Shown: in pieces, positions 6,375 through 56,655 of the stretch | Layout: each line of letters opens with the position of its first letter | Position numbering within the stretch: the first letter of the stretch is position 1 | Source: a virus | Direction: 5' to 3' (one strand) | Length of the DNA stretch: 64,000 nucleotides | IMG/VR virus record: IMGVR_UViG_3300042870_001427 | Span: 1-64,000 of that record | Translations under genes and position numbers: made by a program | The notes under the pieces: generated by a model | The model's input: only the letters and a program-made list of their open reading frames with translations | What the model was told of the DNA's origin: nothing | The model's database searches: none

Positions 6375-8912
6375 ATGGCGTTTTATACTAATGTGCATTT
6401 GCACAAAAATGAGTTTCTTATTCGCGGCTATGAAGATGGCAGGCGTGTTCAATATACCGTGCCTTGTGAGCCCTGGCTTTTTACTAATGATAGAATAGGG
6501 CTTGATGAATACAAGACTCTAGACGGTAAGTCGGTTTATAAAAAGACCTTCAATAGTATATACGATGCCAGAAATTATGTGAGAGAGAATACGGGTGTAT
6601 CTGGTAAAGTCGTCTACGGAATGACTAACTGGGTATACCCTTTTATTAATGATCACTTCCCCGGTGTTATTGACTACGATGCTAAGTCAATTGCCGTAAC
6701 CACCATTGACATTGAGACAGACTCGAGTGGTGGCTTTCCTGATATTTCATTAGCTGATAAACAAGTAACAGCTATCACCCTCCGTAAAGGTGATAAGTCT
6801 GTTGTAATGGGTTACTTCCCATACGAGCCAGAATCAGATAACATAACATACATTCAATGCGATACCGAACAGGCGTTGCTGGAGATGTTCATTAAGTGTT
6901 GGAGATCGGAGCAATACAACCCAGATATTATCACCGGTTGGAATTGTGAGTTCTTCGACATGCCGTATCTTATTAATAGGATTACGCGCATCATTGGTCC
7001 AGAATCAGCCAAACGTCTCTCACCGTGGGGCATGTTGTCCGAGCGTGAGGTTGAGATCAATGGGCGCACCTTCAATATACCAATCATCGTTGGTATTACC
7101 ATTCTTGACTACCTACAGTTGTATCGTAAGTTCTCCTTTACCATGCAGGAGAGTTATAAACTCGACCACATTGCATTTGTAGTCTTAGGTGAACGTAAAT
7201 TGGACTACACCGAACTAGGTTATGAGAACCTGGATGAGTTTTATAGAAAAGACTTCCGTAATTACATTAACTATAACATCAGGGACGTAGACCTAGTATA
7301 TCGGATGGATGATAAACTCAAGTTCATCGATCAAGTATACGCACTGGCATATGACGGTAAGGTAAACTACCTGGATACGTTTACATCGGTACGTATGTGG
7401 GATGTTATCATACACAACTACCTTATCGACCATAAAATTGTTGTACCAATGTTTGACCCTGGTGAGAGGGAAGGACAAGAGGGTATTGAAGGTGCATATG
7501 TTAAAGACCCCCAGGTTGGGTTACATAAGTGGGTGGTATCGTTTGACCTTAACAGTCTGTATCCCCACCTCATCATGCAGTACAACATTAGCCCTGAAAC
7601 GTATAAGGGAATGTTTGCCTCCCTAAACACCGATACCGGTGTCGACAAGATTCTTAACGGTGCATTAAACGATATAGGTATTCGTCGGGAGATGCTTGCC
7701 CAGAATTATACCGTGGCTGCAACTGGTTGTTACTTCGATCGAGATAGACAAGGCTTCTTACCTAAGCTAATGGAGAAGATGTACAACGATCGAGTGCATT
7801 TCAAGAATGAAATGATTGCAGCAAAGAAGAAGTACGAGGCAAATCCTAGCTACGAGTTTGAGAAAGAGATCTCACGTTGCCACAATATGCAGCTGGCCAA
7901 GAAGATTCAACTTAACTCAGCTTATGGAGCCCTTGGTAATAGGTTCTTTAGATGGTTCGATCCTAAGTACGCCGAGTCGATTACCAAGTCCGGTCAGTTA
8001 TCTATCCGCTGGATGGAAGAACGTATTAACAAGTATTTGAATAAAATACTTAAAACTGATAATAGAGACTATGTAATAGCGGTTGATACTGACTCCATGT
8101 ACATAACCTTGGATAGCCTGGTGCAACAGGTCATGCCAAAGGCTGATAACGATAAGGTGGTTAAGTTTCTAGATGAAGTGTGTGAGAAGAAACTAGAACC
8201 ATACATTGATAAATGCTATGATGAGTTAGCAGTCTACGTAAATGCTTACTCACAGAAGATGAAGATGAAGCGTGAGGCAATTGCCAACAAGGGCATCTTT
8301 ACTGCTAAGAAGAGATACATCTTAAACGTGTATAATAACGAAGGTGTTCAGTATACCGAACCTAAGTTAAAGATGATGGGTATTGAGGCGGTTCGCTCCT
8401 CAACCCCGGCTGCTATTAGATCCAATTTCAAAGAGGCTATCATCATTATTATGAATAGTAGTGAAGAGGACTTACAGCAGTACGTGGCAAGACAGAGGGA
8501 AGAGTTTAAAAAGCTTCCGTACGAAGATGTTGCATTTCCGAGAGGGTGTAAGGAGTTAGAGAAATGGCAAGACATTAACTCCGGTGGTAAGATATTTAAA
8601 CTAGGTACACCTATGCACGTTAAAGGGGCTATATTGTATAACTTCTTTATCAAGCAAAAGAAGCTTGAGTCAAAGTATGAAGTTGTGCATCGTGGTTCAA
8701 AGGTTAAGTTCTGCTATCTAAAGATGCCTAACTACCTCGGCGAACATGTTATTGCCACTCCAGGCAAATTACCTAAAGAATTAGAGCTCGATCATCTGAT
8801 CGATTACGACAAACAATTCGACAAAGCCTTCCTTGAACCACTTGGTACCATCTTAGGTGTCATAGGATGGGAGGCTGAAAAACGAAGCACACTAGAAGGA
8901 TTCTTTCTATGA
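6375..8912 (+). CDS. 43: family B DNA polymerase (T4 gp43 type)
   Basis: 845 aa. The exonuclease domain carries DIETDSS (D112, E114), GWNCEFFDMPY (about 188-198) and YNIRDVDLVYR (300-310). The polymerase domain carries motif A DLNSLYPHLI (391-400), motif B KKIQLNSAYGALG (509-521) and motif C DTDS (571-574). All catalytic residues are present, so it should be the replicative, proofreading enzyme working with gp32, gp41/59/61 from this window. Shorter than T4 gp43 (898 aa), as in related aquatic phages. No Shine-Dalgarno precedes the ATG, which lies 6 nt after the -10. Confidence 0.97.
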   Translation: MAFYTNVHLHKNEFLIRGYEDGRRVQYTVPCEPWLFTNDRIGLDEYKTLDGKSVYKKTFNSIYDARNYVRENTGVSGKVVYGMTNWVYPFINDHFPGVIDYDAKSIAVTTIDIETDSSGGFPDISLADKQVTAITLRKGDKSVVMGYFPYEPESDNITYIQCDTEQALLEMFIKCWRSEQYNPDIITGWNCEFFDMPYLINRITRIIGPESAKRLSPWGMLSEREVEINGRTFNIPIIVGITILDYLQLYRKFSFTMQESYKLDHIAFVVLGERKLDYTELGYENLDEFYRKDFRNYINYNIRDVDLVYRMDDKLKFIDQVYALAYDGKVNYLDTFTSVRMWDVIIHNYLIDHKIVVPMFDPGEREGQEGIEGAYVKDPQVGLHKWVVSFDLNSLYPHLIMQYNISPETYKGMFASLNTDTGVDKILNGALNDIGIRREMLAQNYTVAATGCYFDRDRQGFLPKLMEKMYNDRVHFKNEMIAAKKKYEANPSYEFEKEISRCHNMQLAKKIQLNSAYGALGNRFFRWFDPKYAESITKSGQLSIRWMEERINKYLNKILKTDNRDYVIAVDTDSMYITLDSLVQQVMPKADNDKVVKFLDEVCEKKLEPYIDKCYDELAVYVNAYSQKMKMKREAIANKGIFTAKKRYILNVYNNEGVQYTEPKLKMMGIEAVRSSTPAAIRSNFKEAIIIIMNSSEEDLQQYVARQREEFKKLPYEDVAFPRGCKELEKWQDINSGGKIFKLGTPMHVKGAILYNFFIKQKKLESKYEVVHRGSKVKFCYLKMPNYLGEHVIATPGKLPKELELDHLIDYDKQFDKAFLEPLGTILGVIGWEAEKRSTLEGFFL

Positions 8913-24825: not shown

Positions 24826-25246
24826 CTGGATTTTTTACGCAATACTAGTTGCCGGATTACTTGGGTTGTTACTAACCTATGTAATGAAATTCATCCCATT
24901 CGTTTACATCTATAGAACCCCTATCCAGGTTGGTTCTATTTTAGCTATTGTAATTGGAACTTATATGGCCGGGGCCATATCCAATGAAGAAGCATGGCAA
25001 GCACGAGTAAAGGAAATGGAAGACAGGGTAGCAGCTGCCACTGTACAGTCTAATGAAGAGAATGTAAAGATAGTCGAAAAATTAGTTAAGAAGACTGAGT
25101 ACATTACACGTCGTGGACAGGATATAGTTCAATATGTAGATCGTGAGATAGTAAAGTACGATACTAAATTTGCACCTGGTGGTATTTGTGAAATACCAAA
25201 AGAATTTATTGAGGCTCATAATAGGGCGGCAGAGGCACCAAAATGA
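24797..25246 (+). CDS. inner-membrane spanin-like protein
   Basis: 149 aa. Two hydrophobic segments (about 12-30 and 42-60), then a long coiled-coil-like helix (65-130) facing the periplasm. Position directly before a lipoprotein gene that overlaps by 4 nt is the classic i-spanin/o-spanin arrangement. The two hydrophobic segments (one is usual) make this less certain. Confidence 0.65.
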   Translation: MMWILKFLPDWIFYAILVAGLLGLLLTYVMKFIPFVYIYRTPIQVGSILAIVIGTYMAGAISNEEAWQARVKEMEDRVAAATVQSNEENVKIVEKLVKKTEYITRRGQDIVQYVDREIVKYDTKFAPGGICEIPKEFIEAHNRAAEAPK

Positions 25247-25551
25247 GAAACGTTGAGAAACAACAAAGAATCAGCACAATACTATTTGTTATAGTGACAG
25301 CAATATTTTTTATTGCAATGTTCTCAGGATGCTCTACTACAGTACCGGTGACGGCTAAGTTTCCCTCTGTGCCAGAAGGGTTAACAGTAAAGTGCCCTCA
25401 ACTAGAAAAATTAAATAGCGAAGCTAAATTAAGCGACATAAGTAAGACCATTACTGTAAATTATACCACTTATTATGAATGTGCAGTAAAGAATGACTCG
25501 TGGATTGAATGGTACACAATTCAAAAAAATATATTTGAAAGTGTAAAGTAA
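25243..25551 (+). CDS. outer-membrane lipoprotein, o-spanin-like
   Basis: 102 aa. Signal helix (about 12-27) and lipobox FSGC with the acylated cysteine near residue 30, followed by a short proline-containing periplasmic domain. Overlap with the preceding coiled-coil membrane protein supports a two-component spanin that fuses inner and outer membranes at lysis. Confidence 0.7.
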   Translation: MRNVEKQQRISTILFVIVTAIFFIAMFSGCSTTVPVTAKFPSVPEGLTVKCPQLEKLNSEAKLSDISKTITVNYTTYYECAVKNDSWIEWYTIQKNIFESVK

Positions 25552-26856
25552 GTGGCACAATTTAGAACAGATCAACATAAGTTAGATTTCTCCAACAACA
25601 AGACCCGCTATGAGGTGATGATGTTGGATGATAGAATATCTCCGTCTGGTACGATGACGGATGCTTTTGGACGACTAAGAATATCTAGTCCGTTCACTAT
25701 TTTTGATAGCAATCATAGGTTTGCAGATAATGGATTATGGGCAACTTCTAATACAGCCGGAGGAACTTATGCTTTTATTACTAATCAGAGCACTGTAGGT
25801 CTTTCGGTTACCGCGGCAAGTGGTGCAGAGGTAATTAGAGAATCAAAACGAGTATTCTCTTATCAACCAGGTAAGTCATTACTGGTAATGAATACGTTTG
25901 TTATGAATACTCCACAAACTAATTTAAGACAAAGGGTTGGTTACTTTGGTGCCCAGAATGGGGTATATTTAGAAAACGATGGTGTTACTAATTATTTTGT
26001 TTTAAGAAGTTATATTTCGGGTAGTATAGTAGAACAAAGAATTGCGCAAGCAGACTGGAATCGTGATAAGTTTGATGGAACTGGCTATAGTGCTCAAACT
26101 GGAGGATCAGATCATACTGGTGGTATACGTGTTGATAGGTCAAATATTTTATGGTTTGATATTGAGTGGCTAGGTGTAGGTGATGTTCGGTGTGGGTTTG
26201 TGGTCGATGGTAAGATGGTTATTGCGCATGTGTTTCACAATGATAACGTAAACCTAACTCCATACATGACTACTGCATCTCTTCCAATACGGTACGAAAT
26301 CACAAATACTGGAGCAACCGCAGAGTTAAGTATGCTAAAACAAATTTGCTCTACAGTGATTTCTGAAGGTGGATATGAACTAAGAGGTACTCAGATATCT
26401 ATTGGTACAGATATTGTAACTCCTAAAACACTAGGTGCTGCTGGTGCCACCTACTCAATGGTGAGTATAAGATTAAAATCCACTAGATTAAATGCGGTAG
26501 TAATCCCATCTGCAGCCTCTGTACTTCCTGTATCGACAGGAAAATTTATGTGGAAATTAATTCAAAATGGAGTTACTTCGGGAGGGTCGTGGGTATCAGC
26601 TGGGAATGATTCAGCTGTAGAATATAATCTAACAGGCACATCTGTTACTGGCGGTCGAGTTGTTGCTAGTGGACTACTAACAACTACCAATCAATCAACT
26701 ATAAACGTTGATATATTGAGAGCTAGCCTTCTTAAATTTCAACTTGAAAGAGACAGTCTTGCAGGAACACCTGAGGAATTTATTATTGCAATGTCATCTG
26801 ATGGATCAGGCGACACAGCATATGCGACTTTAGATTGGGAAGAAGTGACAAGATAA
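25552..26856 (+). CDS. virion/adhesin-like protein
   Basis: 434 aa from GTG 25552, immediately after the spanin stop. Beta-rich, with DAFGRLRISSP near residue 39, WFDIEWLGVGDVRCGFV near 200 and a C-terminal jelly-roll-like pattern. This type occurs in aquatic T4-like phages as a particle or fibre-associated protein. Function is inference from composition and the neighbouring fibre and lysis genes. Confidence 0.55.
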   Translation: MAQFRTDQHKLDFSNNKTRYEVMMLDDRISPSGTMTDAFGRLRISSPFTIFDSNHRFADNGLWATSNTAGGTYAFITNQSTVGLSVTAASGAEVIRESKRVFSYQPGKSLLVMNTFVMNTPQTNLRQRVGYFGAQNGVYLENDGVTNYFVLRSYISGSIVEQRIAQADWNRDKFDGTGYSAQTGGSDHTGGIRVDRSNILWFDIEWLGVGDVRCGFVVDGKMVIAHVFHNDNVNLTPYMTTASLPIRYEITNTGATAELSMLKQICSTVISEGGYELRGTQISIGTDIVTPKTLGAAGATYSMVSIRLKSTRLNAVVIPSAASVLPVSTGKFMWKLIQNGVTSGGSWVSAGNDSAVEYNLTGTSVTGGRVVASGLLTTTNQSTINVDILRASLLKFQLERDSLAGTPEEFIIAMSSDGSGDTAYATLDWEEVTR

Positions 26857-45161: not shown

Positions 45162-45236
45162 GCACCTATCGTCTATCGGTTAGGACGCTGCCCTTTCAAG
45201 GCGGAAAGAGGAGTTCGATTCTCCTTAGGTGTACCA
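45162..45236 (+). tRNA. tRNA-Glu(TTC)
   Basis: Acceptor GCACCTA/TAGGTGT, anticodon loop CTTTCAA, T loop TTCGATT, A73, encoded CCA. Its CC is also the start of the long stem of the next structured RNA. Confidence 0.93.
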
Positions 45237-45346
45237 TATTAGAATACATTTCAGGTTGAGTTAGATTCGCGGTCTAACTATTTGGGAAGAAAGACGGTGG
45301 AGATATCTGCCAAACACTTCTAAGATACGAAGTGTGTTCTAATATG
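45235..45346 (+). ncRNA. long-stem structured RNA 1 between tRNA-Glu and tRNA-Cys
   Basis: An 18-bp stem, 45235-45252 with 45329-45346 (two G-U pairs), encloses a hairpin AGTTAGA-TTCGCGG-TCTAACT and a GGTG...TGCC helix. The stem begins within the CCA of tRNA-Glu. No ORF. Function unknown. Confidence 0.6.
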
Positions 45347-45351
45347 ATAAT

Positions 45352-45427
45352 GTAGGTGTGACCCGAAAGGCTAGGGAGCAGATTGCAAATCTGTTATATG
45401 CAGGTTCAACTCCTGTCACCTACTCCA
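45352..45427 (+). tRNA. tRNA-Cys(GCA)
   Basis: Acceptor GTAGGTG/CACCTAC, anticodon loop TTGCAAA, T arm GCAGG-TTCAACT-CCTGT, U73, CCA. Confidence 0.92.
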
Positions 45428-45432
45428 GATAC

Positions 45433-45525
45433 GGAGCAATTGATGCTAAGGCGTGTGCATCGGCGGACTGTAAATCCGTCCCCTCGTGGTAAACATTCTT
45501 GGTTCGACTCCAAGTTGCTCCACCA
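45433..45525 (+). tRNA. tRNA-Tyr(GTA)
   Basis: Acceptor GGAGCAA/TTGCTCC, D stem GATGC/GCATC, anticodon loop CTGTAAA, long variable arm, A73, CCA. Confidence 0.92.
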
Positions 45526-45530
45526 AATTT

Positions 45531-45606
45531 GGTCTTAAAGTGTTTATGGACGCACGCTAGCTTGTCACGCTAGAAGAGTGGAGATCGTTACTCCCTAAGA
45601 CCGCCA
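45531..45606 (+). tRNA. tRNA-Asp(GTC) with non-standard T loop
   Basis: Acceptor GGTCTTA/TAAGACC, anticodon loop TTGTCAC, identity base G73, CCA. The T loop is ATCGTTA, so the usual T54-A58 pair is replaced by A54-T58. Confidence 0.85.
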
Positions 45607-45612
45607 AGTTTT

Positions 45613-45686
45613 ACCCCGTTAGCTCAAAGGTAGAGCACCCGGCTGATAACCGGGAGACAGAGGATCGTTACCTCTACAGGGTACCA
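45613..45686 (+). tRNA. tRNA-Ile(GAT) with non-standard T loop
   Basis: Acceptor ACCCCGT/ACAGGGT with one mismatch, anticodon stem CCCGG/CCGGG, loop CTGATAA, T loop ATCGTTA, A73, CCA. Confidence 0.87.
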
Positions 45687-45689
45687 AGT

Positions 45690-45762
45690 TTTAGAGTAGG
45701 TTCAGCAACACTAAAGACTACCAAAATGTTAATTTGTCTTAGTCGACAAAACTACTCTGTTG
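45690..45762 (+). ncRNA. Y-RNA-like element 1
   Basis: 7-bp closing stem AGAGTAG (45693-45699)/CTACTCT (45752-45758); conserved GTTCAGCAA after the 5' arm and GTTG after the 3' arm. An inner hairpin TTGTC/GACAA precedes the 3' arm, as in element 2. Belongs to an eight-copy family; see findings. Confidence 0.7.
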
Positions 45763-45766
45763 TATT

Positions 45767-45843
45767 GCCCTGGTGACGGAATAGGTATACGTACTGGTCT
45801 TAGAAACCAGGTTCTGAGAGTTCGAGTCTCTCCTAGGGCACCA
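45767..45843 (+). tRNA. tRNA-Leu(TAG) with short variable region
   Basis: Acceptor GCCCTGG/CTAGGGC, anticodon loop CTTAGAA, Leu-like D arm, T arm GAGAG-TTCGAGT-CTCTC, A73, CCA. The variable region is only 5 nt, whereas bacterial tRNA-Leu is normally class II. Confidence 0.88.
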
Positions 45844-45893
45844 AAACTCGCCTTGACTTATGGCGTATAATAGGAAAAGTAGTAAGTCAATCT

Positions 45894-45968
45894 GGGCTGT
45901 TAGTGATAATGGTAGCACGGGGGCTTTGCACGTCTCAGGTAAGAGTTCGATTCTCTTACGGTCCACCA
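45894..45968 (+). tRNA. tRNA-Ala(TGC)
   Basis: Acceptor GGGCTGT/ACGGTCC with the Ala identity pair G3-U70, anticodon loop TTTGCAC, A73, CCA. A hairpin TTGACTTA/TAAGTCAA (45853-45860/45883-45890) lies just upstream. Confidence 0.87.
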
Positions 45969-45974
45969 GAATTT

Positions 45975-46049
45975 GGGTCCTTAGTAAAATGAATATTACA
46001 CAACGCTACGAACGTTGAGGTGGGAGTTTGATTCTCTCAGGACCCTCCA
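45975..46049 (+). tRNA. tRNA-Arg(ACG)
   Basis: Acceptor GGGTCCT/AGGACCC, anticodon stem CAACG/CGTTG, loop CTACGAA, T loop TTTGATT, U73, CCA. Confidence 0.88.
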
Positions 46050-46056
46050 ATTTTAT

Positions 46057-46130
46057 GCAGGTAAGCCCGAGGTGGGACGCCAGCCTTCCAAGCTGTGCTG
46101 AGTGGAGTTCGATTCTCCCTACCTGCTCCA
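46057..46130 (+). tRNA. tRNA-Gly(TCC)
   Basis: Acceptor GCAGGTA/TACCTGC, anticodon loop CTTCCAA, U73 as in Gly tRNAs, CCA. Confidence 0.9.
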
Positions 46131-46133
46131 TGT

Positions 46134-46200
46134 TTTAGGATAGTTACAGCAAACTTAAAGCTAAACTTATGGTTGTCTAGCGACAAAAGCTATCCTGTTG
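46134..46200 (+). ncRNA. Y-RNA-like element 2
   Basis: Closing stem AGGATAG (46137-46143)/CTATCCT (46190-46196), TTACAGCAA after the 5' arm, GTTG (46197-46200) then six T. Inner hairpin TTGTC-TAGC-GACAA. The smallest complete copy, about 64 nt. Confidence 0.72.
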
Positions 46201-46206
46201 TTTTTT

Positions 46207-46282
46207 CTCCGTAAAGTGTTACCAGGTAGCATCCGTGATTTGGGGTCATGTGGTCTAGGTTCGAATCCTAGTACGGAGACCA
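46207..46282 (+). tRNA. tRNA-Pro(TGG)
   Basis: Acceptor CTCCGTA/TACGGAG, anticodon loop TTTGGGG, T arm CTAGG-TTCGAAT-CCTAG, A73, CCA. Confidence 0.9.
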
Positions 46283-46286
46283 AGTT

Positions 46287-46409
46287 TTGTCATAGTGTAA
46301 TGAGAATGCATGGGATCGCCACATAAGTCTATGCCGAAAGGCAACACTAGTATTCTAGTGCAATAGCGGTGGAACAAGGTTCAGGTGTGGTAAAAACCCA
46401 CAACGACAA
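46287..46409 (+). ncRNA. structured RNA between tRNA-Pro and tRNA-Gln, part A
   Basis: No CDS. A TTGTC/GACAA pair (46287-46291/46405-46409) may close it; inside are TGCC-GAAA-GGCA and CACTAG-TATT-CTAGTG hairpins. It has no tRNA arms. Possible stable RNA, lower confidence than the Y-like copies. Confidence 0.4.
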
Positions 46410-46415
46410 TCAAGT

Positions 46416-46608
46416 TTTGTAAGTGTCAGCAAGAAAAAGACACTAAATTGAGTAGATGGCCATCCAAAGATTTAGTAGAGCACAGGCGGCGTGATTCCGT
46501 GCAAAACTAAGAATCTGTGGTTGAGTATCCCAAGTGACGTACCGAGTCCCGCTCGAGCTTGTTACACGGGTGAATGGTTGCTATAACGATGGGGCAACTA
46601 CTTACAAA
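46416..46608 (+). ncRNA. structured RNA between tRNA-Pro and tRNA-Gln, part B
   Basis: A perfect 9-bp stem TTTGTAAGT (46416-46424)/ACTTACAAA (46600-46608) encloses about 175 nt with hairpins AGTGTC/GACACT (with AGCAAG in the loop) and TTAGT/ACTAA. No coding frame with a ribosome-binding site. Function unknown. Confidence 0.45.
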
Positions 46609-46616
46609 TTCATTGT

Positions 46617-46690
46617 TGGGGTATTGTGTAGTGGTAGCACACCGGTCTTTGAAGCCGTTAGTAGTAGTTCGATTCTACTTACCCCTGCCA
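46617..46690 (+). tRNA. tRNA-Gln(TTG)
   Basis: Acceptor TGGGGTA/TACCCCT with open first pair, anticodon loop CTTTGAA, T loop TTCGATT, G73 typical for Gln, CCA. Confidence 0.88.
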
Positions 46691-46713
46691 GTTTTTTAAA
46701 AGGAGAGCCTGTT

Positions 46714-46845
46714 ATGGCTAGTGTCAAGAAGGGGACGTTAACTCGTCCACCACAATGGTGGAAACACCTAAGAGAGTATAAGAAGTTTTTCTGGAAATCA
46801 GAAAGACAGGCTTATAAGAAAGAAATTAGCGGGGGTATAACTTAA
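46714..46845 (+). CDS. small basic protein inside the tRNA array
   Basis: 43 aa from ATG 46714 with AGGAG at 46701-46705. Basic and aromatic (PPQWWKHLREYKKFFW). The stop TAA (46843-46845) lies within the first 15 nt of tRNA-Lys, so message and tRNA compete. It is the only clear protein gene among the 18 tRNAs of the first cluster. Confidence 0.6.
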   Translation: MASVKKGTLTRPPQWWKHLREYKKFFWKSERQAYKKEISGGIT

Positions 46846-46905
46846 CGGCTAAAGTAGTAGGCTTTTAACCTATTAATCAGAGTTCGATTCTCTGTACCCC
46901 TACCA
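46831..46905 (+). tRNA. tRNA-Lys(TTT)
   Basis: Acceptor GGGGGTA/TACCCCT, anticodon loop CTTTTAA, T arm CAGAG-TTCGATT-CTCTG, A73, CCA. Overlaps the end of the 43-aa ORF and the stem of the next RNA. Confidence 0.92.
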
Positions 46906-46995
46906 TATAAAAACACATTCAACTAATGACACGGGTGGTAGCTGTGTATCTTAGTGGGCTAACGAACTACTACGCCTGAGTGTGTTTTTATATGG
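46903..46995 (+). ncRNA. long-stem structured RNA 2
   Basis: A 19-bp stem, 46903-46921 with 46977-46995 (one G-U), begins with the CCA of tRNA-Lys. Inside are GTGGTAG/CTACTAC (7 bp) and TTAG-TGGG-CTAA. No ORF. Confidence 0.62.
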
Positions 46996-46998
46996 TTT

Positions 46999-47079
46999 AC
47001 GCATTATTAGTAACGCATGAGCAGGTTACTAACTTCCGCTGGTTACGTCTAGACCGTAAGTGAGTGAAGGATAATGCGT
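46999..47079 (+). ncRNA. structured RNA 3 between long-stem RNA 2 and tRNA-His
   Basis: Closing stem ACGCATTAT (46999-47007)/ATAATGCGT. Inside are an 8-bp hairpin TTAGTAAC/GTTACTAA and TTACG-TCTAGAC-CGTAA. Three-way junction layout. No ORF. Confidence 0.5.
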
Positions 47080-47094
47080 TCCTATATGGTTTAT

Positions 47095-47169
47095 GTGGTT
47101 GTTAGTTTAGTGGTAAAACCGCGGGTTGTGATTCCGCTATCACGGGTTCGATTCCCGTACATCCACCCA
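47095..47169 (+). tRNA. tRNA-His(GTG)
   Basis: Acceptor with G-1 (47095) facing C73, the His identity pair; anticodon stem GCGGG/TCCGC, loop TTGTGAT; T arm ACGGG-TTCGATT-CCCGT; CCA. Confidence 0.92.
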
Positions 47170-47174
47170 AATTA

Positions 47175-47249
47175 GGATGATTAGCTCAGTGGTAGAGCAC
47201 CGCCTTGACATGGCGTAGGTCAGTAGTTCGAATCCACTATCATCCACCA
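47175..47249 (+). tRNA. tRNA-Val(GAC)
   Basis: Acceptor GGATGAT/ATCATCC, D stem GCTC/GAGC, anticodon loop TTGACAT, A73, CCA. Confidence 0.92.
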
Positions 47250-47253
47250 ATAT

Positions 47254-47329
47254 GCCAGGATAGCTCAGTCGGTAGAGCAGTAGACTGAAAATCTATGTGT
47301 GGGCGGTTCGATCCCGTCTCCTGGTACCA
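47254..47329 (+). tRNA. tRNA-Phe(GAA)
   Basis: Acceptor GCCAGGA/TCCTGGT, D stem GCTC/GAGC, anticodon loop CTGAAAA, A73, CCA. Confidence 0.93.
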
Positions 47330-47332
47330 AGT

Positions 47333-47431
47333 TTTAGGATAGTTACAGCAAACAATACTAGTCAATGGTTGACACTTTGCCTTCTAAGCAAACTTTGCCG
47401 GTTCGAATCCGGTAGTTAATCTATCCTGTTG
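47333..47431 (+). ncRNA. Y-RNA-like element 3 enclosing a tRNA-Arg(TCT)-like body
   Basis: Closing stem AGGATAG (47336-47342)/CTATCCT (47421-47427), TTACAGCAA, GTTG. Inside, in normal order, are a D arm GTCA/TGAC, an anticodon arm TTTGC-CTTCTAA-GCAAA (TCT) and a T arm GCCGG-TTCGAAT-CCGGT. The seven bases after the T arm do not pair with the bases before the D arm, so no acceptor stem forms and no CCA is present. The Y-like stem replaces it. Confidence 0.7.
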
Positions 47432-47436
47432 TATAT

Positions 47437-47513
47437 ACCCAAGTGACGGAATTGGTATACGTACTTGTCTCAAAAGCAAGGTTATGTGGGCTCGAATCCC
47501 ACCTTGGGTACCA
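47437..47513 (+). tRNA. tRNA-Leu(CAA) with short variable region
   Basis: Acceptor ACCCAAG/CTTGGGT, anticodon loop CTCAAAA, T arm GTGGG-CTCGAAT-CCCAC, A73, CCA. Variable region of 5 nt, as in tRNA-Leu(TAG) here. Confidence 0.88.
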
Positions 47514-47656
47514 TAGATAAACATACTTCAAAACCCCGGAACCGACTGTAAAGTAGATGTACACGAAACACAGAAGGCAACGTAGTAGATACGGTAAGAT
47601 CCGCAAGGGTGGGGTAGTCGCTTGTGAAAGCCAAGGCGAAGTATGTTTTTCTATGG
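47511..47656 (+). ncRNA. long-stem structured RNA 4
   Basis: A 19-bp stem with one T-T mismatch, 47511-47529 with 47638-47656, starting at the CCA of tRNA-Leu(CAA). The 108-nt interior contains further short helices. No ORF on the plus strand. Confidence 0.6.
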
Positions 47657-47674
47657 TTAGTATTATCATATTAT

Positions 47675-47748
47675 ATCTCGCTGGTGTAATGGCAGCATAG
47701 CGGTCTCCAAAACCGTTGGTTGGGGTTCGAGTCCCTAGCGGGGTGCCA
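47675..47748 (+). tRNA. tRNA-Trp(CCA)
   Basis: Acceptor ATCTCGC/GCGGGGT, anticodon stem GCGGT/ACCGT, loop CTCCAAA, G73 as in Trp, CCA. Confidence 0.9.
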
Positions 47749-47753
47749 AATAA

Positions 47754-47843
47754 GGAAGTGTGGCAGAGTCCGGTTTATTGCTACAGTCTTGAAAACTGTC
47801 GGTCCGAAAGGGTCCGTGAGTTCGAATCTCACCGCTTCCACCA
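47754..47843 (+). tRNA. tRNA-Ser(TGA)
   Basis: Acceptor GGAAGTG/CGCTTCC, anticodon arm ACAGT-CTTGAAA-ACTGT, long variable arm with GGTCC-GAAA-GGGTCC, A73... CCA encoded. Confidence 0.92.
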
Positions 47844-47849
47844 TATCAG

Positions 47850-47878
47850 TTGCAATTATTTCAGTAATATGTTATAAT
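47850..47878 (+). promoter_or_regulatory. sigma70-type promoter of Y-RNA-like array and Ro60-like gene
   Basis: -35 TTGCAA (47850-47855), 17-nt spacer, -10 TATAAT (47873-47878). Transcription would start about 47885, 11 nt before element 4. No terminator with a GC stem is seen before the Ro60-like gene. Confidence 0.82.
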
Positions 47879-47895
47879 TGGAACATGTTAAGAAT

Positions 47896-48046
47896 TTAGA
47901 GTAGTTACAGCAGCAAAAAAAACATGATTAGTCGCTAGCTGATACTTGCTGGAGCTTTATTGCTTTGAAGGTAGGTATCGTAAGGCAAGGCGACGAGGTG
48001 AGTTATATTTTTCACTGTAATAAAAAAATAAAAAGCTACTCTGCGG
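47896..48046 (+). ncRNA. Y-RNA-like element 4 (largest)
   Basis: Closing stem AGAGTAG (47898-47904)/CTACTCT (48036-48042), TTACAGCAG after the 5' arm and GCGG in place of GTTG. Interior of about 130 nt with GTCGC/GCGAC and GTGA/TCAC helices, no tRNA arms. First element behind the 47850 promoter. Confidence 0.6.
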
Positions 48047-48050
48047 ATAT

Positions 48051-48118
48051 TAGGTTAGGTTCAGCAAATAAAATGCATCAAACTTGTAATTTGAAAAAGC
48101 AAAAAAACTAACCTGTTG
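48051..48118 (+). ncRNA. Y-RNA-like element 5
   Basis: Closing stem AGGTTAG (48052-48058)/CTAACCT (48108-48114), GTTCAGCAA, GTTG. Inner hairpin CAAA-CTTGTAA-TTTG. Confidence 0.68.
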
Positions 48119-48121
48119 ATT

Positions 48122-48234
48122 TTAGGATACTTACAGCAAATTACAACTCACGTTGTGTAGGTGGTTCGATCCCATCATTTCGCGTTAGCGAGATTAGCTC
48201 ATCTGGTAGAGCAAACGAAAAGAGTATCCTGTTG
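48122..48234 (+). ncRNA. Y-RNA-like element 6 with permuted tRNA body
   Basis: Closing stem AGGATAC (48124-48130)/GTATCCT (48224-48230), TTACAGCAA, GTTG. Inside, in permuted order: hairpin ACAAC/GTTGT; T arm GGTGG-TTCGATC-CCATC (48160-48176); acceptor 3' strand ATTTCGC; loop GTTA; acceptor 5' strand GCGAGAT (48188-48194); TA; D arm GCTC-ATCTGGTA-GAGC. The anticodon arm is replaced by the outer stem. Known bacterial YrlA RNAs also carry a tRNA-like module, which is the basis of the Y-RNA comparison. Confidence 0.78.
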
Positions 48235-48239
48235 TTTTT

Positions 48240-48346
48240 AGATTGGGTTCTGCAATAAAAAAATTAATCACCAGAGGCCTCGGCCTCACCAAAAACCCCG
48301 AATCTGGGTGGATTGCCTGATAGCACCAATGATGACCAATCTGTTG
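48240..48346 (+). ncRNA. Y-RNA-like element 7
   Basis: Closing stem AGATTGG (48240-48246)/CCAATCT (48336-48342), GTTCTGCAA (one change from CAGCAA), GTTG. Interior has GAGGCC-TC-GGCCTC and a GGTG/CACC helix. Confidence 0.62.
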
Positions 48347-48350
48347 TTTT

Positions 48351-48410
48351 TAGGTTGATTTCAGCAATCAAAAAACTTTACTGGAAATAAAGCAAAAGTT
48401 CAACCTGTTG
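48351..48410 (+). ncRNA. Y-RNA-like element 8, in the Ro60-like 5' leader
   Basis: Closing stem AGGTTGA (48352-48358)/TCAACCT (48400-48406), TTTCAGCAA, GTTG (48407-48410). Inner hairpin CTTTA/TAAAG. It ends 8 nt before the AAGGAG of the Ro60-like gene, so it may also regulate that gene. Confidence 0.68.
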
Positions 48411-48428
48411 ATAAAAAAGGAGTTTATA

Positions 48429-49835
48429 ATGTCAACATTTGTAGAAGCCGTTAAAAACCAAACTGCGCGCACAGAAAACGGCATGCGTGCTCGTAAGTCT
48501 ACTGCAAATGCCTGTGTAGACTTGTTCTTCAAAATTGGTGCATCGCGTGGTAAGGATATTACCAAAGACTTTGTAGCAGCTTATGTCGAGGACAAAGACG
48601 TGGCGTTGCGTATTGCCCTGTGGGCTCGTGACGTGCGTGGTGGTTCTGGCGAACGTGAGTTGTTCCGTCAAATTCTTTCGTACTTGGAAAAGCACGATAA
48701 GGACGCAGCTGCAAAACTGTTGATGAAGACTCCTGAAATCGGTCGTTGGGATGACATCTTTGTTTTCTCCGACCAGGACTTGAAAGTTCAAGCTTTCAAC
48801 TTGTTAGGTGACGCTCTGCGTAGCCGTAACGGGTTGGCTGCTAAATGGACTCCTCGTCAAGGCCCTCTTGCTGCAGAAATTCGTAAGCACTTTGGTATGT
48901 CGCCAAAGTTCTATCGTAAGTCATTGGTTGAATTGACCAATGTTGTTGAGCAGCAAATGTGTGCTGGTAAGTGGGATGACATTAATCATTCTCATGTTCC
49001 TTCTCTTGCAGCTTCTCGCTACAAAAAAGCATTCACACGCCACGGCGCAAAGTTTGCTGAGTATGTGGAAAAGCTTAAGGCAGGAGATGCGGATGTTAAA
49101 GTTAACGCCGCTGCCGTGTACCCATACGATGTACTGAAAGGTATCAGCTCGTACTCTAACTCTTATGGTAAGACTGAATTGGATCACATTGTGGCTCAAT
49201 GGGAAGCATTACCAAACTACGTTGGAGATGCAAGCATCCTACCTTTGGTAGACGTGTCTGGGTCTATGTCAACTCACATTGGTGGTGGTAAAACTACCGC
49301 AATGGACGTTGCAGTTTCTTTAGGTTTGTACTTGTCTGAGAAAAACAAGGGTAAGTTCAAGGATACGTTCTTGACCTTCTCTTCAAAGCCAGAACTGTTA
49401 CATCTTAAAGGTAACGTTGTACAAAAGATGCAACAAATGGTTAAGTCTAATTGGGATATGTCTACAGACTTGCACGCAGCATTGAATAAAATCCTTGCTA
49501 CTGCTGTTCAAGGCAAAGTACCTCAAGAAGAATTGCCAGCAATGTTGCTGATTTTGTCAGACATGCAGTTTAACGCTTGTGTCAAGCATGATAATTCTGC
49601 GATTGAGATGATCAACCGTAAGTATGAAAGTGCTGGATACACCGCACCTGCAATCGTGTTCTGGAACTTGAACGCCAAGGACAATGTTCCAGTTAAACAT
49701 GACGCATCTGGTGTTGCGCTGGTCTCCGGATTCAGCCCAGCAGTTGTGAAATCGGTTCTGTCTTCTGACATGGATCAATTCACTCCAGAAGGTATCATGC
49801 TTAAGACCGTAATGGTCGACCGCTACGCTCTTTGA
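48429..49835 (+). CDS. Ro60-like TROVE/vWA protein (DUF2828-type)
   Basis: 468 aa from ATG 48429 (AAGGAG 10 nt upstream). The N-terminal two thirds are helical repeats with the family markers LWARDVRGGSGERELF (65-80) and IGRWDDI; the C-terminal vWA domain has a complete MIDAS: DVSGSMS (274-280), MSTDL (about 344) and LSDMQF (about 375). TROVE proteins form a ring that binds Y RNAs and damaged or misfolded RNAs; DUF2828 proteins share this layout but have no proven RNA partner. Here five structured RNAs lie directly upstream on the same transcript. Ends before a terminator. Confidence 0.8.
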   Translation: MSTFVEAVKNQTARTENGMRARKSTANACVDLFFKIGASRGKDITKDFVAAYVEDKDVALRIALWARDVRGGSGERELFRQILSYLEKHDKDAAAKLLMKTPEIGRWDDIFVFSDQDLKVQAFNLLGDALRSRNGLAAKWTPRQGPLAAEIRKHFGMSPKFYRKSLVELTNVVEQQMCAGKWDDINHSHVPSLAASRYKKAFTRHGAKFAEYVEKLKAGDADVKVNAAAVYPYDVLKGISSYSNSYGKTELDHIVAQWEALPNYVGDASILPLVDVSGSMSTHIGGGKTTAMDVAVSLGLYLSEKNKGKFKDTFLTFSSKPELLHLKGNVVQKMQQMVKSNWDMSTDLHAALNKILATAVQGKVPQEELPAMLLILSDMQFNACVKHDNSAIEMINRKYESAGYTAPAIVFWNLNAKDNVPVKHDASGVALVSGFSPAVVKSVLSSDMDQFTPEGIMLKTVMVDRYAL

Positions 49836-50326: not shown

Positions 50327-50860
50327 ATGAGTAACTTTAGATTCATTGATAGAAACGTAGACGTCAGTAAAATACTTAAACAGGTCCTAGACAATCCTAA
50401 AGATTGGCAGGCGGTCACTGCGTTTAAGAATACAGCCGGTGATAAGAACCCCTATGGCTTTTTACCTATGGTGATGGCTGTAGTCAGAAACGCAAATGAC
50501 GATCCAAAGAATACAGAATTACAAATGAACACTCCTTTGTATAAAAAATATACAGAGATTAGGAAGTGGCTTCGTAACCAAGGTATCTACAATACCTCCA
50601 GGGCTGCTTTTTTTAGACTCAAGCCTGGTGATGGTGTTGGTAGACATATAGATGATGGTACGTACTATTTGACTAGAGATAGATACCACCTTGCACTTCA
50701 AGGGACATATCTGTATACAGTAGATGATGAAGAACATCAGATCACACCAGGAACCTTTTTCTGGTTTGACAATAAAAAATATCATTCAGCATTCAACAAC
50801 GGTGATGTAGATCGACTTACATTTGTATTCGATGTCCCTCATTCACCAAAGAATCCTTAA
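50327..50860 (+). CDS. Asp/Asn beta-hydroxylase-like oxygenase
   Basis: 177 aa, AAGGAG before the ATG. RLKPGDGVGRHIDDGTYYL supplies the Fe ligand H-x-D (about 107-109); YHLALQG and HSAFNNGDVDRLTFVFDV supply the distal His and the Arg that binds 2-oxoglutarate. Matches the aspartyl/asparaginyl hydroxylase family. Substrate unknown. Embedded among tRNA genes. Confidence 0.75.
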   Translation: MSNFRFIDRNVDVSKILKQVLDNPKDWQAVTAFKNTAGDKNPYGFLPMVMAVVRNANDDPKNTELQMNTPLYKKYTEIRKWLRNQGIYNTSRAAFFRLKPGDGVGRHIDDGTYYLTRDRYHLALQGTYLYTVDDEEHQITPGTFFWFDNKKYHSAFNNGDVDRLTFVFDVPHSPKNP

Positions 50861-52194: not shown

Positions 52195-52878
52195 ATGGAA
52201 TATATTGATCGCTTTGACTTGTTCCCAACCCCGGTATTGAGGTATGGATTCAAGGACATTGAACTTCATCATGAAAACCTTGTCAAGTACCTTGCAAGAG
52301 ACGACTTGTATTTCAAGGACAAGGAACGTAACGGCGTTCAAACAACCGATGGTGATCTCTTTAACCACAAAGAGATGGAACCAGTATACAACTTATTTAC
52401 CGAATGCTTCAATGATGCTATGGATAAGTTAGGTTACGAAAAAGATCACGGTATTATTTCAATGTGGGCCACCAGACAAAGGGATGGCGGATTCCATCAT
52501 CAGCACATTCATAAGAATACTTTTCTTGCCGCTGTACTCTATCTCTTTGACATAGACGGTACAGCCAGCGGTACCACATTTCATAATCTTAATCGTAACC
52601 TTCATCAAATTGATCCGCGTCATAAAAAAGATGCTGATCGGTTCTTCAAAGATAGTGAAAATGTTCCATTCATAAACGGTACAGTGTTGGTGTTTCCTGG
52701 ATGGGCATCCCATTCAACCATTCCTTCACCAAGCCGCTATAGAATAATGGTAGCTGCTAATATGATGCCGATTGGTCGTACGACCTCCGATCATTACGAT
52801 CAGTACTACTACCATGACCCCAAGGAAAAGGGTTACCTAAATCTAGTAGATCATATCAAAGAAGGATACAGTAAGTAA
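52195..52878 (+). CDS. 2-oxoglutarate/Fe(II) oxygenase-like protein
   Basis: 227 aa. HHQHIHKNTFLAAVLYLF (about 101-118) and PGWASHSTIPSPSRYRIMVAAN (about 181-202) provide the Fe-binding histidines and the arginine of putative 2OG-Fe(II) oxygenases found in T4-like phages. Second oxygenase in the tRNA region, of a different subfamily from the gene at 50327. Confidence 0.72.
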   Translation: MEYIDRFDLFPTPVLRYGFKDIELHHENLVKYLARDDLYFKDKERNGVQTTDGDLFNHKEMEPVYNLFTECFNDAMDKLGYEKDHGIISMWATRQRDGGFHHQHIHKNTFLAAVLYLFDIDGTASGTTFHNLNRNLHQIDPRHKKDADRFFKDSENVPFINGTVLVFPGWASHSTIPSPSRYRIMVAANMMPIGRTTSDHYDQYYYHDPKEKGYLNLVDHIKEGYSK

Positions 52879-54840: not shown

Positions 54841-55785
54841 ATGTCTCATTTAGTAGAAACTATGGCATATGCTGGTGAAGTTCCATGGCATGGACTTGGT
54901 AAGTCTGTACCTGCAGATCTTTCGCCTGAGCAGATGTTGAAGGCAGCCGATCTTGACTGGACGGTCAGCAAGGTTCCTGCATTTGCAAAGATTGGTAACG
55001 AAAATAAACCTGTGGGTTGGTCAGCCCTGGTTCGTTCTTCTGACGATCGTATTCTCGATGTTGTATCTGATGAATGGAATCCTATTCAGAATTCAGAAGC
55101 ATTTGAGTTCTTTCACGAGTATTGCCAGAATGGTGATATGGAGATGCATACTGCTGGTTCCCTTAAGAACGGTCAAGTAGTTTGGGCTCTTGCTAAGGTG
55201 AAGGAATCATTCGAATTGTTTAAAGGTGATCAAGTTGACTCTTACCTCCTATTTACTAATCCTCACCGCTTTGGCCAGTGTATTGATATTCGCTTTACTC
55301 CTATTCGTGTGGTATGTAATAATACGCTTACCCTTAGCCTGTCTGAGAATTCTGATCGTATGGTCAAGAAAAATCACCGTAGCCTCTTCGATGCCTCAAA
55401 GGTAAAGGAAGAGTTAGGTATTGCTACGAATAAACTTGCCAAGTATAAGGAGATGGCTGAATTCCTTGGAAGCAAGCGCTATACCGATGACACCATCAAG
55501 AATTACTTCCGTGAGGTATTTCCTACTCTCTCTAAGAATAAAGAGAATGATTCGGAGACTCTGTCGCGTGGTGCTAAGTCAGCCCTGGCCGTCCTCGAGA
55601 CCCAGCCTGGTGCTAACTTTGCCGAAGGTAGTTGGTGGCAGGCATTCAATGCGGTTACTTTCTTGACCGATCATAAGATTGGACGTTCGGCTGATACCCG
55701 ACTACAATCGGCATGGTTCGGTCCTAATAAGAACCTCAAGATCAAGGCTCTTGAGACCGCAATCGAATACGCCGAAGCAGCATAA
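54841..55785 (+). CDS. DUF932 / phage-plasmid-like TIGR03299 protein
   Basis: 314 aa. PWHGLGKSVP (about 14-23), LYLLFTNPHRFG-like segment and RFTPIRVVCNNTL (about 151-163) match the DUF932 family of phage and plasmid proteins, whose function is unknown. Own promoter. Followed by a hairpin TGGGGAC-TGT-GTCCCCA (about 55790-55806) that may end the transcript. Confidence 0.82.
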   Translation: MSHLVETMAYAGEVPWHGLGKSVPADLSPEQMLKAADLDWTVSKVPAFAKIGNENKPVGWSALVRSSDDRILDVVSDEWNPIQNSEAFEFFHEYCQNGDMEMHTAGSLKNGQVVWALAKVKESFELFKGDQVDSYLLFTNPHRFGQCIDIRFTPIRVVCNNTLTLSLSENSDRMVKKNHRSLFDASKVKEELGIATNKLAKYKEMAEFLGSKRYTDDTIKNYFREVFPTLSKNKENDSETLSRGAKSALAVLETQPGANFAEGSWWQAFNAVTFLTDHKIGRSADTRLQSAWFGPNKNLKIKALETAIEYAEAA

Positions 55786-56249: not shown

Positions 56250-56318
56250 GAGTTATTGCTGTATGAAGCAAAGAGAAAAATGTCCTGGACGGGGGTGCGA
56301 ATCCCCCCAGGTCCACCA
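56250..56318 (+). ncRNA. ssrA: tmRNA acceptor piece (permuted gene, 3' part of the mature RNA)
   Basis: T arm GGGGG-TGCGAAT-CCCCC (56291-56307), then CAGGTCC (56308-56314), A, CCA (56316-56318). CAGGTCC pairs with GGGCCTG (56491-56497) at the start of the coding piece to give a 7-bp acceptor stem with one G-U. TGTCC (56281-56285) can pair with GGACA (56531-56535). The 5' limit is estimated. The T loop departs from TTCRANY. Confidence 0.72.
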
Positions 56319-56330
56319 TAAAGGTTTTAA

Positions 56331-56489
56331 GTGGAAAATAAACTCAAGGAATTGCAAGAAAACTTAGCTAAAGATTTAGTTAAATGCGAAGTCCGTGAGG
56401 GAATAACACTTACAGAAGAGAACTTGGAAAAGATTTCAGAAACTTACTCCAAAGTGTATGATATCATTACAGAGATAAAATCTTTATGA
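56331..56489 (+). CDS. 52-aa ORF between the two tmRNA pieces
   Basis: GTG 56331 to TGA 56487-56489, with AAAGG 6 nt before the GTG. The ORF fills the intervening segment and ends one base before the coding piece begins. The protein is charged and helical (KLKELQENLAKDLVKCEV..., ending TEIKSL). No family recognised. Coding is supported by the ribosome-binding site and by the uninterrupted frame. Confidence 0.6.
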   Translation: MENKLKELQENLAKDLVKCEVREGITLTEENLEKISETYSKVYDIITEIKSL

Positions 56490-56490
56490 T

Positions 56491-56655
56491 GGGCCTGACC
56501 TAGATTCGACAGGGCAAAGAGTAACAGAGTGGACAGCACATCAGAGAAGATGTTAAAACTAAAACCACGTAAACGCAAACGACGAACAGTTCGCATTAGC
56601 AGCCTAAACGCTGCTTAGGGTTTCGGTAGGTTTCCTCGTAACAGAATAACCTACC
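56491..56655 (+). ncRNA. ssrA: tmRNA coding piece (permuted gene, 5' part of the mature RNA)
   Basis: Begins GGGCCTGACCTAGATTCGAC, close to the conserved tmRNA 5' end. The tag frame runs from GCA 56575 to TAA 56605-56607 and encodes ANDEQFALAA, with the tag stop in the loop of AGCAGC (56598-56603)/GCTGCT (56610-56615) as in known tmRNAs. A final 8-bp hairpin GGTAGGTT (56625-56632)/AACCTACC (56648-56655) closes it. Rescues stalled ribosomes and tags the peptide for proteolysis. Confidence 0.88.

Follow-up and report, generated by a model that had tools for sequence, protein, structure and literature searches.

Y-like RNAs with tRNA-like heads, most likely partners of a Ro60-like protein, in and next to the tRNA array of a phage

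Introduction

The bacterial Y RNA YrlA mimics the D, T, and acceptor arms of tRNA (PMC8394870; likewise the Rfam structure), and phage Ro proteins and phage Y RNAs are already known in outline, Ro-like proteins and Y RNAs having been reported or suggested for mycobacteriophages and for Listeria phage CKA15. We analyzed the first 64,000 nucleotides (the window) of virus record IMGVR_UViG_3300042870_001427, a 164-kb record whose DNA polymerase is closest to those of cyanophage-type T4-like phages (48-49% identity). Within the window, eight elements (E1 to E8; Table 1), each closed by a 7-bp stem, lie in and downstream of a dense tRNA array (45162-47843) and ahead of a gene for a Ro60-like protein, which is of the same protein family as the Ro-like proteins of those phages; the elements are most likely Y-like RNAs that have the phage Ro protein as their partner.

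In CKA15, very high transcription was reported for three non-coding regions that lie upstream of the Ro-like gene at a distance of no more than 2 kb, and Y RNAs were suggested there without being identified (PMC12282133); the coordinates considered here are those of one of the strongest regions, 26236-26727, and do not place the present elements among the three. The CKA15 Ro-like protein was detected in purified particles, a result stated there with the authors' caution. A second point of comparison is provided by the phage tRNAs that evade tRNA-targeting defences (PMC10264068, PMC11555353), which share with the elements the genomic array and possibly the conflict in which they act; those are working tRNAs, however, whereas the elements described here have no acceptor end, and decoys or Y RNAs appear in the main text of neither paper. 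In the literature covered, which did not include the 2014 survey, no description was found of a Y-like family that is multi-copy, defined by a motif, and equipped with anticodon-arm heads, and priority is not certain.

Results

Closing stem and conserved flanks

All eight elements named in the preliminary description, with the arms listed there, are present between 45693 and 48410 on the + strand, and the closing stem is perfect in 8/8 copies. They had been described as interleaved with tRNAs, which is true of E1-E3, but E4-E8 form a single block between tRNA-Ser and the Ro-like gene. Paired changes had been claimed at five stem positions; they occur at four (3, 4, 6, and 7), and A1, G2, and T5 are invariant in the window. 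The nearly invariant flanks also need qualifying: a TWCAGCAA-type motif follows the 5' arm, with E4 (CAGCAGCAA) and E7 (CTGCAA) as exceptions, and GTTG follows the 3' arm in seven of the eight copies, E4 having GCGG instead.

Table 1. Elements of the family and the neighbouring Ro60-like gene in the window
Feature	Position	Strand	Closing arms	R1 score	Head or description
E1	45693-45762	+	45693-45699 / 45752-45758	52.2 bits (training set)	Stem CAAA-ATGTTAA-TTTG, Asn GUU-like anticodon arm (4 bp), within small possible pseudoknot GACTA..TGTC..TAGTC..GACA
E2	46137-46200	+	46137-46143 / 46190-46196	47.0 bits	Short; possible pseudoknot GCTA..TTGTC..TAGC..GACAA; without clear anticodon arm
E3	47336-47431	+	47336-47342 / 47421-47427		D arm, anticodon arm TTTGC-CTTCTAA-GCAAA (Arg UCU), and T arm GCCGG-TTCGAAT-CCGGT; Y stem replaces acceptor stem
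E4	47898-48046	+	47898-47904 / 48036-48042	no match	Large head of no assigned type
E5	48052-48118	+	48052-48058 / 48108-48114	73.0 bits (training set)	Bare anticodon stem-loop TCAAA-CTTGTAA-TTTGA (Thr UGU)
E6	48124-48234	+	48124-48130 / 48224-48230		Permuted tRNA mimic: hairpin, T arm, acceptor-like hairpin TTTCGC-GTTA-GCGAGA, D arm
E7	48240-48346	+	48240-48246 / 48336-48342	33.5 bits	Long head of no assigned type
E8	48352-48410	+	48352-48358 / 48400-48406	74.0 bits (training set)	Bare anticodon stem-loop CTTTA-CTGGAAA-TAAAG (Ser GGA)
Probable ninth, longer relative	46417-46607	+		no match	TTGTAAG-TGT-CAGCAAG ... CTTACAA, 8-bp closing stem; GT after 3' arm absent
Ro60-like protein gene	48429-49835	+			468 aa; DUF2828/DUF7788; PHROG 850 'RNA-binding protein' (1.2e-141); alpha-helical repeat part and von Willebrand A-like part

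The 5' motif was sought, without requiring pairing, in the window and in 80 loci (viral contigs in which the neighbouring protein has a relative). On the strand of the gene, 117 of the 181 distinct motif sites were followed within ~200 bases downstream by the exact complement of their own arm; when arms were exchanged between sites, 1.5% matched, and on the reverse strand 2 of 55 motif sites did so. Many of the unmatched sites resemble chance motifs elsewhere in the loci. A chance origin of the elements is excluded. The consensus of 223 elements reads TTT-AGRWTNN-NTWCAGCAA ... N'N'AWYCT-GTTG, in which C[AT]GCA and GT were prerequisites of the search itself.

A covariance model, R1, was built from 47 short copies and gave 184 matches in 66 sources (viral contigs), all on the + strand, i.e., the strand of the gene. 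In the model's alignment, both-sided change was found at 11 of 12 pairs, and the covariation score was 0.72 versus 0.18 in shuffles and at most 0.18 when the alignment was slid. Where arms matched at six of seven positions, the 15 cases comprised five G-U and one C-A, a comparison that has few cases and mildly favours RNA. The swap test and the covariation scores are thus strong covariation in homologues and uphold the earlier proposal of a selected RNA structure. An additional CAGCA:UGUUG pairing besides the arms was considered and rejected, because the resulting pseudoknot would have a 3-nt linker obliged to span both stems; a further point against it is that other phages can have GUAA following the 3' arm. 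The idea that the element is a processing site of tRNA spacers was also rejected, since copies adjoin the Ro-like gene in contigs with no detected tRNA (e.g., locus L127).

The probable ninth relative resembles an element at another locus (L018, 136-372), and the element at 46410-46616 has no DNA relative in the phage collection. In the remainder of the 164-kb record (except the 146 bases from 144001 to 144146), only chance-like matches lacking the AG..T arm pattern were found.

The neighbouring gene and its association with the elements

The product of the neighbouring gene was modelled with AlphaFold2 (mean predicted local distance difference test score of 78.7), and the five best matches of the model in a Foldseek comparison with the PDB were all Ro60, with E values from 6e-6 to 5e-4. 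The leading match was Ro60 of Thermus phage phiLo (PDB 9l5y; 6.2e-6), followed by the Ro autoantigen entries 2i91, 1yvr, and 1yvp. Sequence identity of the phage protein to the phiLo protein and to Xenopus Ro (1yvp, 2i91) is 12-16%, and a sequence search of the protein against the PDB returned no Ro60, which was found by fold comparison only. Relatives in other records are annotated 'Ro-like RNA binding protein', and the phage collection holds 682 records with Ro-like (DUF2828) proteins. That the neighbour is a Ro60-type ring protein, by its modelled fold and not by sequence, is well supported.

Dozens of phage contigs carry members of the family next to the Ro-like gene, and the motif together with the covariance model detects elements in Kyanoviridae, Straboviridae, Herelleviridae, mycobacteriophages, and others. 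Searched against whole phage records, R1 found matches in 13 of 17 DUF2828 phages, namely this phage, Synechococcus BUCT-ZZ01, Stenotrophomonas DLP_6, Cronobacter S13, Aeh1, Felix O1 (weakly), Faith1, Listeria LP-125, KVP40, Campylobacter CP81, Serratia BF, Pseudomonas Milchi, and Aeromonas LAh_9 (nine copies). The control set without DUF2828 was small (n=8: T4, T5, phiKZ, S-SSM4, S-PM2, P-SSM2, SPO1, and RaK2); seven of its members had no R1 match, and that of RaK2 was marginal and about at chance level (E 0.049).

E8 sits in the leader of the Ro-like gene (48352-48429), ending 18 bases ahead of the start codon. In most relatives, a gap of 14-51 nt separates the end of the nearest upstream copy from the gene. 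In mycobacteriophage Faith1 the elements directly adjoin the Ro-like gene, as they do in Listeria phages, among them LP-125 and CKA15 (equivalent interval 25216-25617). In Serratia phage BF, ~200 kb separates the copies from the gene, and the elements must therefore be capable of acting in trans. The Ro60-like fold of the neighbour and the co-occurrence with DUF2828 are the reasons for regarding the elements as probable phage Y RNAs; gene neighbourhood, fold, and co-occurrence together make their predicted binding to the Ro protein highly probable.

Comparison with YrlA

The preliminary description recognized no named RNA family here. This no longer holds, because E6 aligns with the Rfam YrlA family (RF02553) over the full length of the model, albeit at 31.2 bits and far below the gathering threshold of 69, and because the family travels with a Ro60-like gene. 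None of the other seven copies matched RF02553, and no single Rfam model matches all copies. As expected of Y RNAs, the ends of the elements pair into a closing stem and their gene lies near, or co-occurs with, a Ro-type gene. The likeness to YrlA and its Rsr/Ro60 partner thus comprises the end-to-end closing stem, a tRNA-like head, and a gene beside that of a Ro-type protein, and the YrlA order of the head (T arm, acceptor hairpin, D arm) is found in E6 and at least 12 relatives, though not in the short copies. The differences are of three kinds: the elements have AGRWUNN..CAGCAA / GUUG in place of the stem and internal-loop sequence conserved in the Rfam consensus; there are many elements per genome; and the phage heads include an anticodon arm, which is absent from YrlA.

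tRNA-like heads

In their variable interiors the elements mimic tRNA, a likeness that the preliminary description had missed, and the head of many short copies consists of nothing but an anticodon stem-loop set on the Y stem. Under a strict rule (5 bp, a 7-nt loop YUNNNAH, T loops left out), an anticodon arm is present in 60 of 207 elements versus 2.2 in dinucleotide shuffles; for short elements the figures are 35 of 85 and 0.7. An anticodon arm followed by a T arm at tRNA spacing occurs in 21 elements and in no shuffle. With the loop motif CTNNNAA as the sole starting point, 12 of 28 distinct sites had 5/5 flanking pairs, compared with 1.9 when the flanks were shuffled. In a further alignment (A2), all five head pairs undergo both-sided change, but the motif-only test is the less biased of the two because the A2 sequences were picked partly by eye. 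G-U pairs are present in the head stem.

The anticodons displayed include Arg UCU, Thr UGU, Lys UUU, Ser, Tyr, and others, and Asp GUC heads occur in some contigs of metagenome-assembled genomes (L133, L134). Altogether, 31 distinct anticodon arms correspond to 15 anticodons. Position 36 is U or A in 30 of the 31, against 60% of the tRNAs of the same loci, a bias that may be due in part to the rule's demand for A37. In both LAh_9 and Milchi, one head carries TTTGACTTTTAATCAAA (TTTGA-CTTTTAA-TCAAA), whose 15 central bases are identical to E. coli tRNA-Lys, the comparison having been made with 5,395 E. coli genomes; the phages' own tRNA-Lys stems differ from the head (CGGA/TCCG and CAGA/TCTG).

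The recurrent heads are of three types: a bare anticodon stem-loop; D, anticodon, and T arms on the Y stem; and a circularly permuted tRNA, with the order anticodon arm, T arm, acceptor hairpin, D arm. E3, of the second type, scores 28.0 bits against the Rfam tRNA model (RF00005; gathering threshold 29), and it forms no full cloverleaf, the acceptor being replaced by the Y stem. The third type is seen in a relative of E6 (L058, 4467-4584), which has the anticodon arm TTCGA-CTTGTAA-TCGAG in front of the T arm, acceptor hairpin, and D arm, and the same layout occurs beside the Ro-like gene of Faith1 (L086, 10533-10658). By this order of arms, the relatives of E6 are circularly permuted tRNAs, opened between the D and anticodon arms. 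Lacking a free acceptor end, all three head types are expected to be unchargeable.

As a separate observation, the heads of E1 and E2 (45715-45757 and 46153-46190) and of two relatives (L044 1786 and L058 4115) seem to have in common a small pseudoknot, XXXX..GUC..X'X'X'X'..GAC, the first stem of which covaries.

Other features of the array and its surroundings

Four spacers of the tRNA array (45238-45345, 46904-46994, 46990-47085, and 47511-47658) form long hairpins closed by ~10-17 bp, e.g., CATATAAAAACACATTC...GAGTGTGTTTTTATATG, and three of them begin with an A-rich ..ACA..TTC; they are possibly a second structured-RNA family in the array. The tRNA-free spacer at 46283-46414 has the ends TTGTC...GACAA and several hairpins, and was matched by neither Rfam nor R1. 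A tRNA-Gly-like sequence with the anticodon loop CTTCCAA (46057-46129) was missed by ARAGORN and gave only a weak tRNA-Sec match in Rfam. Outside the array, 56257-56607 is a phage permuted transfer-messenger RNA (RF04321, 111.6 bits) with the tag ANDEQFALAA according to ARAGORN; BUCT-ZZ01 and Stenotrophomonas phage DLP_6 (L081, L082) have such an RNA as well. In LP-125 (L087), 7471-8022 is a ROOL RNA (87.4 bits; gathering threshold 99.1) between the tRNA array and the Y-like elements; the approximate ROOL position in CKA15, 26236-26727, is among the most transcribed regions of that phage. Three genes near the array (50327-50860, 52195-52878, and 54841-55785) encode an Asp/Asn beta-hydroxylase-like protein, a 2-oxoglutarate-Fe(II) oxygenase, and a DUF932 protein, respectively.

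Discussion

Taken as a whole, the explanation we favour, at slightly better than an even chance, is that the elements are Y-like RNAs of the Ro60-like protein that serve as anticodon decoys. The shared part, UUU-AGRWUNN-NUWCAGCAA ... complementary arm-GUUG, would be the handle gripped by the Ro ring, and the head of each element would be a tRNA look-alike. Ro-RNA particles would then show many different anticodon arms to host anticodon nucleases and other defences of the tRNA-cutting kind, serving as decoys (competitive substrates or inhibitors) and working beside the phage's own large tRNA set. The elements may in this way protect tRNAs during infection. Their function as decoys is put forward tentatively, as somewhat less than an even chance. 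Tentative too, and a shade more so, is the full picture of Ro-scaffolded banks in which each RNA would bear the anticodon arm of a different tRNA, the Ro ring would protect and present it, and nucleases would be wasted or blocked on uncharged mimics. Decoys are placed first because the heads show many real anticodons and yet should never be charged, and a competitive-inhibitor role against an anticodon nuclease has been suggested, as a proposal, for the head of Salmonella YrlA (PMC7790460). The LAh_9 and Milchi head that matches E. coli tRNA-Lys, and differs in its stem from the tRNA-Lys of these phages, also speaks for decoys.

Several observations count against this explanation. Salmonella YrlA was not cut by the anticodon nuclease tested (PMC7790460). 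The strict anticodon arm is limited to ~30% of elements overall (~40% among short copies), and the heads of E2, E4, and E7 fit no explained type. Under a loose and noisier rule, 64 of 109 head anticodons also occur on a tRNA of the same locus, which fits several functions. On the protein side, the template modelling scores to Ro60 are moderate (about 0.5; 0.46-0.53 by query length), and the Pfam TROVE family (PF05731) does not match the protein in its own record, although DUF2828 and DUF7788 do. Finally, four of the 17 DUF2828 phages (phiM12, a Staphylococcus, an Enterococcus, and a Bacillus phage) gave no R1 match.

An unlikely alternative is the classical role of a Y RNA, whereby an exonuclease of host or phage origin (PNPase in the case of the Deinococcus RYPER machine) would be tethered to the Ro-like ring by the stem, the particle would degrade structured RNA, and the tRNA-like head would be only a docking piece. 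Tethering is the studied role of the bacterial Y RNA (PMC8394870, PMC12282133), and E6 has a YrlA head; tethering does not, however, lead one to expect numerous copies that differ in their genuine anticodons, or anticodon arms that stand alone without T or D arms.

A platform for RNA repair, on which the Ro protein and the tRNA mimics would gather RNA ligase, kinase, and RtcB and present or recognise cut tRNAs, is rather improbable. Such a role has been proposed for phage Ro/TROVE proteins (PMC7824862), and RNA ligase genes are found in 9 of the 11 DUF2828 phages tested, just upstream of the Ro-like gene in Serratia phage BF and, together with RtcB, downstream of it in Listeria LP-125. However, RNA ligases are common in large phages anyway, and searches of this phage's own record, which may be incomplete, gave no match to RNA_ligase or RtcB.

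The position of E8 and of the nearest copies in relatives would suit a control element, in which binding of the leader copy by the Ro-like protein would control the protein's own translation and the other copies would titrate it. Many copies are nevertheless kilobases away, between tRNA genes, or as distant as in phage BF, and the heads would be left unexplained; control of this kind is quite improbable, although it could hold alongside another role. A DNA-level repeat instead of an RNA (a recombination site, mobile element, or integron attC-like site) might be imagined from the inverted ends, the varied cargo, and the several arrayed copies, but is very improbable given that 184/184 R1 matches are on the gene's strand, that the heads fold as parts of tRNA, and that head stems contain G-U pairs.

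Phage Ro-like proteins are common, but few of their RNA partners are known, and Rfam misses them. If the elements are indeed anticodon-arm decoys, RNA counter-defence would gain a new class, and phage Y RNAs a concrete function that can be put to the test; the position of the elements within tRNA arrays would also be explained.

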